Positions 58,389-64,000 of a DNA stretch of 64,000 bases are shown here, piece after piece. The stretch comes from Limisphaerales bacterium (GTDB lineage Bacteria > Verrucomicrobiota > Verrucomicrobiia > Limisphaerales > SXTU01). The notes under the pieces are model-generated. The model did no database searches and was not told the origin of the DNA. It saw nothing but the letters and a program-made list of their open reading frames with translations. Numbering within the stretch: the first letter of the stretch is position 1; the number at the start of each line of letters is the position of its first letter. Both the position numbers and the translations under genes were made by a program. The DNA is taken from positions 5,745 through 69,744 of the forward strand of contig WRPG01000043.1 of the NCBI GenBank assembly GCA_009773355.1, given 5' to 3'.

Positions 58389-61300
58389 TTACTTCTTCAC
58401 CGCCGCCGTCTTCTGCGGCTCGGGGGCGGGGGCCTTGGGCGGCTCGAAGGTGGCGATGCTGCTGCCGTTCGCGCCGTTCCAGACGCGCAGGATGCCGTCC
58501 TGGCCGCCGGCGATGACGATCTTGCCGTCGGGCGTGGCGGCGGCGGAATACATGAAGTCGCTCGCGCCGGCGAAGGTGCGGGCGTCGCCGCCGCCTTCGT
58601 TGATGAGGCGGACCTTGCCGTCGCCGCCGGTGGCGAGGAACTGGTCGCCCACGCCGACGTGGTTGATGGAGGTGGCTTCCTTGCTGAAGCCCTGGATGGT
58701 CCGCACCACCTCGCCGGTGACGAGGCTCCAGACTTTCACCGCGTTGTCCGCGCCCGCGCTGGCGATGATGCGGCCGTCGCGCTTGAGGGTGACGCCGAGC
58801 ACCTGATGCGTGTGGCCCTCGAAGGCTTTCACGAGCTTGGTGTCCGCCACGGTCCACGCCTTCACGAAGCGGTCCGCGCCGCCGGTGGCGAGGAGCTTGC
58901 CGTCGCCGGAGAAGTCCACGCTCTGCACGGTGTCGCTGTGCGCGCCCTTGAACTCCTTCACCAGCGCGCCGGTGGCGGCGTCCCAGAGCTTCAACTCGCC
59001 GCTGCGGGAAGGCTCGCCGCTGCCGGAGGCGAGGGTCTTGCCGTCGGGGCTGAAGGCGAGCGTGTTCACGCGGCCTGTGAGCGGCGAGGTGCCGGTGGAC
59101 GAACCGATGGTGCGCACGAGTTTCCACTCGGGCTGGCTGTCCCAGACGATGAGCTTGCCGTCGCTGCCAGCGGAAACGACCGCGCCCGCGACGAGCGCCA
59201 CGGCCTTCACCGCGCCGGTGTGGCCCTGGTAATTTTCCAGGCCGCTGCCGTCGGCCGCGCTCCAGGTGCGGACGACGCCGTCCTCGCCCGCCGTGACGAC
59301 GGCCTTGCCGTCTGCGGAGAAGGCGAGCGAGCGAATCATCTTCTCATCGGCGGTCTGGGTTTTCTTCGCATCGGCGGCGGTGGCGTCGGCCTTTTTCTGC
59401 GCGGCCTCGGCTTCGGCGAGGGCGGCCTTGGCTTTCACCACGTCGTCGGCTTCGCGCTTGGCATCAACGGCGGCGCGCTTGGCGGCGTCCACGGCGTCGG
59501 TGTATTTGCGGACCTCGGTGGTGGCCTCGGTGAACTTCTTGTTTTCGGCGGTGAACTTGTCGGTGGCTTCCTTGAGCTTGGCGTTGGCGTCGGTGAGCGC
59601 CTTGTCGGCGGCGGTTTTGGCGTCAGCAGCGGTTTTGGCCTTCGCGGCGGCGGCGGTGGAAGCCTTCTCCGCGGCGGGCTTGCCGGCGGCGTCGGCCTTG
59701 GCGAGCACCTCGGCGGCGGTCTTCGCGGCAGCGTCGGCCTCGGTCGCGGCCTTGTCGGCGGCTTCCTTGTCGGTCATGGCCTTCTTCTGCGGGGCCTCGG
59801 CTTCCATCTTGGCCTTCTCGGCGGCGTTCTTGGCGGTGGTGGCGTCGGCGAGCTTCTTCACGTTCTCGGCGTGCGGCTTCTCCAGCTTCACCCGCTCCTC
59901 CTCGGCCTTCTTCGCGGCGTCCTCGGCTTTCTTCAAATCGTCCTCGGCCTTCTTCTGCGCGGCCTTCTGGTAAGTCACCTCGTTGTTCGCAAACGTCAGG
60001 TCGCGGCCCACGGCGGCGACGCGGTCGGCGACGTAGCGGTCACCGCGAAGCTCGCCAAGCGCCTTGCCATCGGCGGCGTTCCAGAGTTTCGCAACGGTGT
60101 TCGTGACGCCGAGGCTGGCGATGGTCTTGCCGTCGGCGCTGACCGCGAGTGCGGCGACCGGGCTGCCGTGGGCCAGCGTGCGAACCGCGCTGCCGTTGTC
60201 GGCGTTGAGCACGCGCACGACACCGTCGGTGCCACTGGCCAAGAGTTGCGCGGGCGGCAACGCGGCGAGCTGGGTGATGGGGCCGGTGCCGGCGATGACC
60301 GCGCCCGGCTCGACCTTGCCGCCGGCGGCTTCGGGGAGCTTCCACGTCAGGATGTTCTTGTCGCCATGCGCGGTGGCGATGCGCTTGCCATCGGGGAGAA
60401 TGGCGACGGCAGCGACGTCATTGGTCGCGGTGACTTCGGCGAAGAGAGAACCGTCGGCGAGGTTCCAGACGCGCGCGGTCTTGTCTGCGCCGGAGACGAG
60501 GCGCGCAGAGTTGGTGGAGAAGCCGAGCGACTTCACCGGGCTGGTGTGGCCGGAGAGCGTCTTGCCGGGCGTGAGAGCCGGGAGGCTCCAGAGCTTGATG
60601 TCGTTGCCGGAGACGGAGGCGAGCCACTTGCCGTCGGGGCTGGTGGCGAGCAGGTCCGCCGCGCCGGGCAGCGTCTGCTTCTGCACGTTGGTCGGGCGCT
60701 GCCAGAGCTTCACCTCGCGGTAGCTGCCGGAGGCGAGCGTGTTGCCATCGGGGCTGAATGCGAGCGCGTAGGTCATGTCGCGATGCGCAACGCCGGGGCG
60801 GGCGTAGGTCTTGTCCGCGAGCAGCGCGGAGTCCGTGAGGCGACCGATGGCCGTGGCGGTCGGAATGTGGAAGAGATGGATCTGGTTCGCGCGGCCGGCG
60901 GCGGCGAACTGGCCGTCCTCGGTGAGCGCAACCGCGTAAATGGGATTCAAGCCCGGCGGCAGCGGCTGCCAGACGATGGGCCCCATGCCCTTCACCTCGC
61001 CGGTCGCGCCCTGGTCAATCCACAGCTTGAGCAACGCAAGCTCACCGGGGTTGAGGTTCCTCGCGCCGGCCTTGTTGCCGGCGGGCGGCATCGGCGGCTT
61101 GCTGATGTGCGCGGCGACGCGGAAGAGCGAGCTGCTTTCGGCCTTCTTGGGCTGGACCATTTTGCCGGTGTCGCCGCCCTTGGCGATGGTCTGGGGCGTC
61201 TCGAGATTCACGCCGTCCTCGCCCTTCTGCGAGTTGTGGCAGGAGAGGCAGTTGCGGCGGAGGATGGGGAGGATTTCCTTCTCGAAGTCCACCTTGGAGG

Positions 61301-61439
61301 AGCGGCGCAGCTTGGCGACGGGCAGCGGCCCCTTCTTGGAGTCCTCCTTCGGTGCCTCGGCGGCGGGGGAGAGGAAAGGAGCGGCGAGAAGGCCTGCGAT
61401 CAGGAGCGACAAAACGCGGGGCGATTGAAAATGTTGCAT
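58389..61439 (-). CDS. WD40-repeat protein with a heme c motif and a central coiled coil
   Basis: The product is 1016 residues with a signal peptide (VLSLLIAGLLAAPFLSPAAE) and a PSCyt1-type heme motif CLSCHN at residues 64-69, followed by KPPMPPAGNKAG. WD40 repeats occur in two blocks (about 155-480 and 705-1000; for example SLAFSADGKAVVTAGEDGVV and VWSLVTGEVVRTIQG). Between them is an Ala/Lys-rich coiled coil of about 210 residues (AADKAATEADAAAKTAAEV). This architecture is widespread in Planctomycetota and Verrucomicrobiota; its role is unknown. It is divergent from gltA. Confidence 0.88.
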   Translation of the reverse strand: MQHFQSPRVLSLLIAGLLAAPFLSPAAEAPKEDSKKGPLPVAKLRRSSKVDFEKEILPILRRNCLSCHNSQKGEDGVNLETPQTIAKGGDTGKMVQPKKAESSSLFRVAAHISKPPMPPAGNKAGARNLNPGELALLKLWIDQGATGEVKGMGPIVWQPLPPGLNPIYAVALTEDGQFAAAGRANQIHLFHIPTATAIGRLTDSALLADKTYARPGVAHRDMTYALAFSPDGNTLASGSYREVKLWQRPTNVQKQTLPGAADLLATSPDGKWLASVSGNDIKLWSLPALTPGKTLSGHTSPVKSLGFSTNSARLVSGADKTARVWNLADGSLFAEVTATNDVAAVAILPDGKRIATAHGDKNILTWKLPEAAGGKVEPGAVIAGTGPITQLAALPPAQLLASGTDGVVRVLNADNGSAVRTLAHGSPVAALAVSADGKTIASLGVTNTVAKLWNAADGKALGELRGDRYVADRVAAVGRDLTFANNEVTYQKAAQKKAEDDLKKAEDAAKKAEEERVKLEKPHAENVKKLADATTAKNAAEKAKMEAEAPQKKAMTDKEAADKAATEADAAAKTAAEVLAKADAAGKPAAEKASTAAAAKAKTAADAKTAADKALTDANAKLKEATDKFTAENKKFTEATTEVRKYTDAVDAAKRAAVDAKREADDVVKAKAALAEAEAAQKKADATAADAKKTQTADEKMIRSLAFSADGKAVVTAGEDGVVRTWSAADGSGLENYQGHTGAVKAVALVAGAVVSAGSDGKLIVWDSQPEWKLVRTIGSSTGTSPLTGRVNTLAFSPDGKTLASGSGEPSRSGELKLWDAATGALVKEFKGAHSDTVQSVDFSGDGKLLATGGADRFVKAWTVADTKLVKAFEGHTHQVLGVTLKRDGRIIASAGADNAVKVWSLVTGEVVRTIQGFSKEATSINHVGVGDQFLATGGDGKVRLINEGGGDARTFAGASDFMYSAAATPDGKIVIAGGQDGILRVWNGANGSSIATFEPPKAPAPEPQKTAAVKK

Positions 61440-61570
61440 AGCAAATCTGGTTGCAGAGGGCAGACGCGACGTGCGCGGGGAGTGTTCAGGCAGATTGGCT
61501 TCCGCCGCGGTTATCAACGCGCTTAAGCCGGTGAATTCACCGTGTTCATCGCGGCTGGCTTTGAAATCCG

Positions 61571-61599: not shown

Positions 61600-61641
61600 C
61601 GTTCAGCGATTTTTTAACGAAACCCACCGAAACCCCGAAGC

Positions 61642-62778
61642 ATGAGCACCCCCACGGCAGCAGCAGCGAGCAAAGGCCTCGAAGGCGTCGTCGCCGCCCA
61701 GACGCGCCTGAGCGATGTCAAAGGCGACATCGGCCAGTTGGTTTACTGCGGTTACGACATCAACGAGCTGGCCGGCAAGGTCACTTACGAGGAAGTCGTT
61801 CACCTGCTCCATCACAACCATCTGCCGAACAAGACGGAGCTGGCCGAGCTGAAGGCCACGCTGGCGCAGTTCCGCGACATTCCGCAGGGAGTGATCGACA
61901 TCATCTGCAAGCTGCCCAAGGAGACGCCGCCCATGAACGCGCTGCGCACGGCGGTGTCCGCGCTGGGCTGCTTCGACACGACGAGCGAGGACGACTCGCA
62001 GCATTCGCAGCGGCGCAAGGCGCTCCGGCTCGTCGCGCAGGTGCCGGTCGTGACGGCGTATTTCCATCGCAACCGCCAGGGTCTGCCGCTCATTGCGCCC
62101 GACGCGAAGCTCGGCGAGGCCGCGAACTTCCTCTGGATGATCAACGGCAAGCCGCCGACCAAGGACATGGAAGCCACTATGGACGTGTGCTACGTGCTGC
62201 ACGCCGACCACGGCATGAACGCCTCCACCTTCAGCGCGCGCGTCACCATCGCCACGCTGTCGGACATGTATTCGGCAATCACCACGGCCATCGGCACGCT
62301 TAAAGGCCCGCTGCACGGCGGCGCGAACGAAGGCGTCATCAAGATGCTCCACGAGATCGGTTCGCTGGAGAAGGTGGACGGCTGGGTCGCCGACGCGCTC
62401 GCGCAGAAGAAGAAAATCATGGGCATCGGCCACCGCGTTTACAAAGTGCTCGACCCGCGCGCGCCGCACCTCAAGCGGATGGCACAGATCCTCAGCAGTC
62501 AGCTCGGCGAGCCGAAGTGGATCCAGATGTCCGAGCGCATCGCCGAGCTGATGCTCGCGAAGAAGAACCTCCACGCGAACGTGGATTTCTACAGCGCCAC
62601 CGTCTATTACTCGCTCGGCATCCCGACCGACCTGTTCACGCCCATCTTCGCCATCTCGCGCACGAGCGGCTGGACCGCTCATGTGCTCGAACAGCTCGCC
62701 GACAACCGCCTCATCCGCCCGCAGTCACAATACACCGGGCAGGTGGGGTTGAAGGTTGTGCCGGTGGAGCAGCGGTAA
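61642..62778 (+). CDS. gltA: Citrate synthase
   Basis: Citrate synthase condenses acetyl-CoA and oxaloacetate in the TCA cycle. The product is 378 residues, the shorter archaeal/Gram-positive-like type. The catalytic residues are in HADHGMNASTF, GPLHGGANEGVIKML (His), GIGHRVYKVLDPRAPH (His) and ANVDFYSATVYYSLG (Asp). A TIR-like gene begins seven bases after the stop and sucC follows, so the three are one transcription unit. 2-Methylcitrate synthase is the main alternative. Confidence 0.95.
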   Translation: MSTPTAAAASKGLEGVVAAQTRLSDVKGDIGQLVYCGYDINELAGKVTYEEVVHLLHHNHLPNKTELAELKATLAQFRDIPQGVIDIICKLPKETPPMNALRTAVSALGCFDTTSEDDSQHSQRRKALRLVAQVPVVTAYFHRNRQGLPLIAPDAKLGEAANFLWMINGKPPTKDMEATMDVCYVLHADHGMNASTFSARVTIATLSDMYSAITTAIGTLKGPLHGGANEGVIKMLHEIGSLEKVDGWVADALAQKKKIMGIGHRVYKVLDPRAPHLKRMAQILSSQLGEPKWIQMSERIAELMLAKKNLHANVDFYSATVYYSLGIPTDLFTPIFAISRTSGWTAHVLEQLADNRLIRPQSQYTGQVGLKVVPVEQR

Positions 62779-62785
62779 GCGAGAA

Positions 62786-63478
62786 ATGAATCAACCAGCA
62801 GACTCGGTTGGCAAGGATTCGGCTCAACCAGCCAGCCGTTCCATTTTTGTCGCCTACGCTTACAATCTTTACGACAAGCGTGATTACCGGAAGGTTTTTG
62901 CCGATTTGGAGAAAGCCTACGATGTGCGGTTTATCTTCGCCGACGAGAAGATAACGAACATGCACATCCTTCAGAAAATCATCAGTTACATCAAGGCGTC
63001 CGATTTCTCCCTGTTCGACATCTCAGGCTGGAATCCAAATGTGACTCTGGAGCTCGGGATTGCACTGGCCCACTCCGACAACTGGTATATTTGCTTCAAC
63101 CCCGAAAAAACTCCGATTGCGGAAGTGCCCAGCGATATCAAGGGCATTGACCGAATCCAATACTCCAGCTTTTCCGACCTGTCCGACAAGTTGACCACTT
63201 TGCTGGAACAGCGCTATCCCAAGCAGAAGAGGCAACCGCTTGACGAATATGTTCTGACGCTTGAACAGGATGTCGTTGCACTTCTCGGGAAAAAGCCCGG
63301 GTTGAAAATGAACGAGATCGCACAGATTTTGAGACTTTCGGTCAAAATGGCTCAGGTCGTTGTGTTGCCGATGGTCGGTGCCAAACTACGCGTCGAAGGA
63401 CAAACCAGAGGCTCTCGATATTTTCTCAGAGAACAAGTTTTGGAATCGAAGGTCCTGCTCCCCTCCCCCCCGAATTAG
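62786..63478 (+). CDS. TIR-like/deoxyribohydrolase-fold protein with a C-terminal winged helix
   Basis: The product is 230 residues. The N-terminal domain (about 18-145) starts with SIFVAYAYN, has [16 protein letters not shown] and the hallmark [15 protein letters not shown] near residues 83-97. Glu89 sits where TIR-like and nucleoside-deoxyribosyltransferase-type enzymes keep their catalytic Glu. The C-terminal 80 residues look like a winged-helix domain ([35 protein letters not shown]). Relatives in defence systems degrade NAD+ or nucleotides, but that role is inferred. Its GC is lower than that of gltA and sucC, between which it is tightly packed. Confidence 0.7.
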
Positions 63479-63482
63479 CCAA

Positions 63483-64000
63483 ATGAACATCCACGAATAC
63501 CAAGCCAAGCAGCTTTTGAAACAGTATGGCGTTGCCGTTCCTGACGGCGACGTGTGCAAGACGCCGGAGGAAGCCAAAGCTGCCGCCGAAAAGCTGGTCG
63601 CCGCCGGGCACAAGATGCTCGTGGTCAAGTCGCAAATCCACGCCGGCGGGCGCGGCAAGGGCACCTTCAAGAGCGGCTTCAAAGGCGGCGTGAAACTTTG
63701 CAAGACCGCCGCCGAAGCACACGACCTCGCCAAAGCCATGCTCGGCAACGTGCTCGTCACGAAGCAGACCGGCCCCGACGGCCGCCTCGTCAGCACGCTG
63801 CTCGTTGCGGGTGCGCCGAACATCAAGAAGGAGCTTTACCTCGCCGTGCTACTGGACCGCGCCACCAGCCGCCCGCTCGTCATGGCCAGCACCGAGGGCG
63901 GCGTGGACATCGAGGAAGTCGCCGAGAAGTCGCCTGAGAAAATCGTGAAGGAGCAGATTGACCCGGCGCTGGGTTTCCAGCCGTGGCAGGGCCGCAAGAT
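63483..64000 (+). CDS. sucC: Succinate-CoA ligase beta subunit (partial, runs off the window)
   Basis: The first 172 residues are visible. The N-terminus [20 protein letters not shown] and the ATP-grasp segment [19 protein letters not shown] are characteristic of SucC, which with SucD interconverts succinyl-CoA and succinate while making ATP or GTP. The ATG lies four bases after the TIR-like gene stop. The 3' part is beyond the window end. Confidence 0.95.

Follow-up and report, generated by a model that had tools for sequence, protein, structure and literature searches.

A gene of 230 codons lying between gltA and sucC, in the 64,000-bp stretch of Limisphaerales DNA analyzed here (the window), is best explained as a horizontally acquired member of an integron-cassette gene family. 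We judge it reasonably probable that this gene was captured at the gltA-sucC junction without an attC site and that it encodes a TIR/nucleoside-deoxyribosyltransferase (TIR/NDT) glycohydrolase fused to a winged-helix sensor.

A gene of foreign-looking composition between gltA and sucC

The ORF (62786..63478, + strand) runs from an ATG at 62786-62788 to a TAG stop at 63476-63478 and is delimited by the ORF call together with its relatives, their alignment and their genomic contexts. It begins 7 bp after the stop codon of gltA (61642..62778, +), which encodes a citrate synthase of the type II/2-methylcitrate synthase subfamily (PF00285, E 4e-132; TIGR01800, 498 bits), and ends 4 bp before the ATG (63483) of sucC (63483..63998, +, running off the window), which encodes the beta subunit of an ADP-forming succinate-CoA ligase (PF08442, E 2e-61 to 3e-61; NF001913, 208 bits). 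The composition of the gene is foreign-looking, at 50% GC against 64% for its neighbors: its GC content is 49.8% (62% at third codon positions, GC3), compared with 63.9% for gltA (GC3 89%), 63.6% for sucC (GC3 84%) and 65.9% for the window. A preliminary description had presented it as a low-GC gene packed between gltA and sucC with gaps of seven and four bases, with which the ORF calls and composition agree, and had proposed that it is expressed with central metabolism; as far as spacing indicates, the tight packing does suggest co-expression with gltA-sucC. The last 16 residues of the protein (63428..63475, +) have no counterpart in an alignment with its closest relatives, and this tail may represent read-through into junction sequence. 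Upstream of gltA, a divergently oriented gene of 1042 codons (58389-61517, - strand) encodes a c-type-cytochrome-like region of CxxCH type together with WD40-like repeats and a long coiled-coil-like stretch that is rich in Ala and Lys.

Relatives of the gene lie in apparent integron cassettes

A search of 84,980 species genomes for close relatives of the protein returned 33 candidate stretches, which resolved into six loci. The resulting family is patchy, with members in Desulfatitalea, Lysobacter, Geothrix, Opitutaceae, Rhodanobacter, Accumulibacter and one prophage, and it is rare, occurring in only 2 of the 384 genomes searched in the class and in 1 of 398 from the order to which Lysobacter belongs. 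Plasmid and phage records held no match to the window protein at 1e-5, and one frameshifted copy was present in two related prophage-like contigs of IMG/VR. In one of these (3300029951_000145; L015:5019-6467), the frameshifted copy is followed by a DUF4145 gene and an attC-like sequence and has a probable phage portal gene on one side and a probable terminase gene on the other, an arrangement of cassettes inside a prophage.

Wherever flanks were readable in bacterial genomes, the relatives are nearly always integron gene cassettes, as judged from sequence. Cassette membership was read directly at four loci (L002, L004, L005 and L006) and through an attC array and intI at a fifth (L003). For example, the gene of Opitutaceae EW11 (L005) is flanked on each side by a copy of a 90-100-bp attC repeat; this repeat occurs eight times in 4.5 kb, each copy coming after a short ORF. 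The Rhodanobacter cassette (L006) has complementary 11-mers, GTTATACGTAC and GTACGTATAAC, at its ends (found in 0.0005 of shuffles), followed by an attC-like sequence, and the Desulfatitalea cassette (L002) has matching 8-mers at its ends (0.018 of shuffles). The Lysobacter array (L003), in which the immediate flanks of the gene are masked, contains attC sites of the form GCCTAAC...GTTAGGC and its own intI in the same locus. In Geothrix (L004), a core site precedes the gene and an attC comes after it, the next element being a ThsB_TIR and caspase cassette. In addition, an integrase scoring above the curated cutoff of TIGR02249 was present in the genomes of all six relatives and in none of 14 control genomes. 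A search of the homologous loci against Rfam gave no family at threshold.

The cassette that follows the Geothrix campi relative (L004:5628-7113) carries a ThsB-type TIR gene and a caspase-domain gene and resembles type IV Thoeris (TIR plus caspase-like; Rousset 2025, as cited in PMC13174449). Among the known neighborhoods, this is the only recognizable defense pair beside a member of the family, and it forms a separate cassette, which counts against the explanation we favor.

The genome from which the window derives has integron traces of its own, namely an intI at C17:13889-14824 (455 bits) and an attC at C17:15219-15344. Of 11 genomes of the genus, 7 have intI. In the host integron (C17:13889-15344; L034) there is just one attC, and its cassette is almost empty. 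Around the window copy (61600-64000), no attC or paired core sites were detected by methods that do find attC in the Lysobacter locus, in the Opitutaceae locus and in the host integron. This result counts against the favored explanation, in which integron capture is therefore inferred from the relatives. A one-mismatch ATTAGCC before sucC was considered as a residual site and set aside as too short to weigh.

The gltA-sucC junction varies within the genus

Among ten other genomes of the genus, gltA was found in nine and the gene in none. Six of these congeners (L017-L021 and L025) have a gltA-sucC spacer of about 74 bp (73-76 bp) with a hairpin of -17 to -28 kcal/mol. The hairpin has the form ACAGGGCGGGC-GATGA-GTCCGCCCTGT, with a conserved loop and a TTTGCTGAAAACC tail, and may serve as an attenuator or a weak terminator; it matched no Rfam family at threshold, and no copy with up to three mismatches was found elsewhere in the genome of the window. 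As judged by comparing these junctions, the ancestral hairpin spacer was replaced by the TIR/NDT gene in the window species alone. Three other congeners carry unrelated genes at the same position: a Phd/YefM antitoxin and PIN toxin pair in which the toxin stop overlaps the sucC start (G392; L024:2685-3371), a 23S-rRNA-IVP four-helix-bundle gene (G391; L023), and a minus-strand gene for a small, DUF4190-like membrane protein (G393; L022). Small genes thus occupy this position in 4 of 10 gltA-bearing genomes, the window's own included, indicating that such genes are tolerated at the junction or attracted to it and that it is a possible insertion hotspot.

Since the junctions of the congeners are either empty or occupied by other genes, the insertion is specific to the lineage of the window, and we regard the placement between gltA and sucC as an accident of gene capture in that lineage. 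The preliminary description had treated the gltA-sucC layout as a meaningful system, had asked whether orthologs occur in the same operon, and had suggested that the helix domain could regulate it. None of these ideas withstood the comparison: the layout is unique to this genome, the relatives elsewhere are integron cassettes, nothing suggests regulation by the helix domain, and we reject regulation of gltA-sucC because the congeners lack the gene. A broader form of the same idea, that the protein is an addition to the TCA cycle operon that responds to NAD+ or nucleotide state and adjusts gltA-sucC, draws on the tight packing against both genes; with the gene missing from all ten congeners, three of which have unrelated genes in its place, and with relatives in integrons, we consider it very improbable. 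We regard as equally improbable that a cassette was wrongly joined into the gltA-sucC contig during assembly. The assembly is a draft of 162 contigs and the composition of the gene is sharply unlike that of its neighbors, but the ORF is complete and cleanly abuts both genes inside an 86-kb contig, other insertions occupy the same junction in congeners, and the junction has no attC or repeat that could drive misjoining.

A predicted TIR/NDT fold with an invariant glutamate

An AlphaFold2 (AF2) model of the 230-residue protein, built from nine sequences, reached a pLDDT of 75 and a pTM of 0.53, a moderate confidence that we count against the favored explanation. In this model, residues 15-145 (62828..63220, +) are predicted to adopt the alternating beta-alpha TIR/NDT (DRHyd) fold, an assignment that draws on the model, on VIA-align and on PF10137. 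With VIA-align, this region matched DNPH1 (Z 13.8), MilB (12.4), the TIR domain of SPARTA TIR-APAZ (12.0) and the TIR domain of RRS1 (11.9) over 115-129 residues, and Foldseek comparison of the model with known structures gave E values down to 1.9e-5. Thus, the TIR-like domain proposed in the preliminary description survived the structural check. Among sequence profiles, PF10137 (the TIR of CAP12 and Pycsar effectors) matched the window protein at E 3e-4 with 21.2 bits, under the curated cutoff of 24.7, a shortfall that also counts against the favored explanation; the Lysobacter protein, with 24.1 bits, falls under the cutoff as well. All six members matched this profile at E <= 0.05, the best of the relatives at 8.5e-6. 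The best PADLOC match of the window protein was to a TIR effector model (E 1e-4), and a search against NCBIfam profiles found nothing. A direct sequence search of the PDB with the protein yielded only chance matches (WD40), which were discarded.

The putative active site lies in the motif N83-P-N85-V-T-L-E89-L-G91 (63032..63058, +), in which Glu89, encoded by codon 63050-63052, is the probable catalytic residue named in the preliminary description. It passed the conservation check: Glu89 is kept in all six close relatives (50-66% identical) and in all nine sequences of a wider alignment (A2) that includes two distant relatives at 22-23% identity, and Leu90, Gly91, Ala93, Ser116 and Asp117 are likewise invariant across the nine. 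The spacing N83-x-N85-x3-E89 corresponds to R78-x-N80-x3-E84 of the SfSTING TIR domain, whose active-site residues are R78, N80, E84 and D110 (PMC9402430), and an Arg is present in the distant relative L009. By spacing and motif, Asp117, within a conserved PSD, is a candidate counterpart of SfSTING D110.

The structural matches leave room for a different activity. DNPH1 and MilB are the top matches, and the nearest folds are hydrolases of nucleotides ((d)NMP) rather than NADases, which again counts against the favored explanation; moreover, the viral matches include a phage CMP/hydroxymethyl-CMP hydrolase, and a profile match to trypanosome NDT places the Glu opposite the ELG/EVG-type Glu of that enzyme. 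The protein could accordingly be a metabolic or housekeeping nucleotide hydrolase of the DNPH1/MilB type that removes modified nucleotides, either against phages with modified DNA or for sanitation. Nevertheless, we think this unlikely. The TIR domains score nearly as well (Z 11.9-12.0, at most about 2 below the top match), the profile matched by all members is that of the CAP12/Pycsar TIR, and the NDT, DNPH1 and MilB N-glycosidases, although closest in fold (Z 12-14), are only about 13-15% identical to the window protein, which has a fused winged helix that DNPH1 and MilB lack. On the strength of these models, the domain most likely acts as a TIR-type NAD+ (or nucleotide) glycohydrolase through Glu89.

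A likely winged helix at the C terminus

The C-terminal approximately 70 residues (residues 152-214; 63239..63427, +) have the order H-H-H-E-E in AF2 models. Some relatives match HTH_24, HTH_5 and MarR_2, one of them reaching E 3e-4 with HTH_24, and Foldseek comparison of the C-terminal model alone gave weak hits among winged helices of the ArsR type (best E 2e-3), with no match to the PDB below E 1e-3. The C-terminal winged helix of the preliminary description is thus plausible, and on these models likely. As regards the protein, that description proves largely correct.

The pairing of a sensor domain with a winged helix is a common design of regulators, and a likely winged-helix C terminus is present in all members, with HTH_24, HTH_5 and MarR_2 matches in some. 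The protein might therefore be a ligand-responsive transcription factor, whose TIR/NDT domain binds NAD+, ADP-ribose or dNMP without catalysis and whose winged helix controls genes, possibly its own. We give this reading little weight. The active-site motif, with its invariant Glu, is more strongly conserved than the winged helix among the relatives that are 50-66% identical, and the Glu persists in the distant ones, so that an enzyme fits better; in addition, the scattering of the family over integron cassettes leaves no fixed regulon.

Discussion

Our favored explanation, capture of a gene from the integron-cassette family, suggests the following course. A cassette would have entered the gltA-sucC junction, either by the action of IntI on a secondary site or through illegitimate recombination, and would then have lost its attC, leaving the cassette gene fixed between the two genes. 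Cassette insertion outside integrons through attG sites has been described (Loot et al. 2024, as cited in PMC11023631). Since cassettes generally lack a promoter of their own, according to PMC4670013, the gene would now be transcribed from the gltA promoter in the role of the integron's Pc. Once activated, the TIR/NDT domain would cleave NAD+ or a related nucleotide through Glu89, leading to abortive infection or dormancy, and the winged helix would sense nucleic acid or a protein from the phage, or mediate assembly. Because integrons have been described as libraries of phage-defense genes (references 91-93 of PMC12444791, as cited there), abortive-infection phage defense is our best guess as to function by analogy, with chances that we place at even or slightly better.

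The protein is probably, as judged from sequence, a TIR/NDT effector and a variant of integron cassette genes, with a winged-helix fusion that is unusual. It resembles CAP12/Pycsar-type effectors of PF10137, for example SfSTING, in the TIR fold, in the [R/N]-x-N-V-x-x-E-L-G motif with a catalytic-type Glu and in the downstream PSD aspartate, but it has a winged helix in place of a STING or cyclic-nucleotide sensor, and no CD-NTase or cyclase gene lies nearby. CBASS and Pycsar effectors combine a partner cyclase with a ligand sensor, whereas the neighbors here are gltA and sucC and the second domain is a winged helix. Similarly, the window contains no ThsA or caspase partner of the kind that would make a Thoeris pair. 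The gene also resembles the anti-phage cassettes of integrons (Darracq 2025, Getz 2025 and Kieffer 2025, as cited in PMC12444791), which are likewise small, single-gene, borne by chromosomal integrons and probably defensive; unlike these, the window copy is outside an integron, lacks attC and lies within a core metabolic operon. A bolder possibility, which we hold only tentatively, is that the family represents a previously undescribed, single-gene, integron-borne anti-phage system, a TIR/NDT glycohydrolase that senses phage DNA or protein through its own winged helix, and that the window copy is a cassette lifted from its integron, stripped of attC and fixed in an essential TCA cycle operon, at a site where small genes of a selfish or defensive kind arrive again and again in this genus.

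Integron cassette genes, now known as reservoirs of phage defense, thus gain a probable effector of the TIR type that is unusual in its fused winged helix, and the window copy would offer a concrete case of a cassette gene that has left its integron and become fixed in an operon of housekeeping genes. Variation at the gltA-sucC junction, seen in 4 of 10 species in this genus, lends itself to studies of how accessory genes exploit core operons for their promoters.
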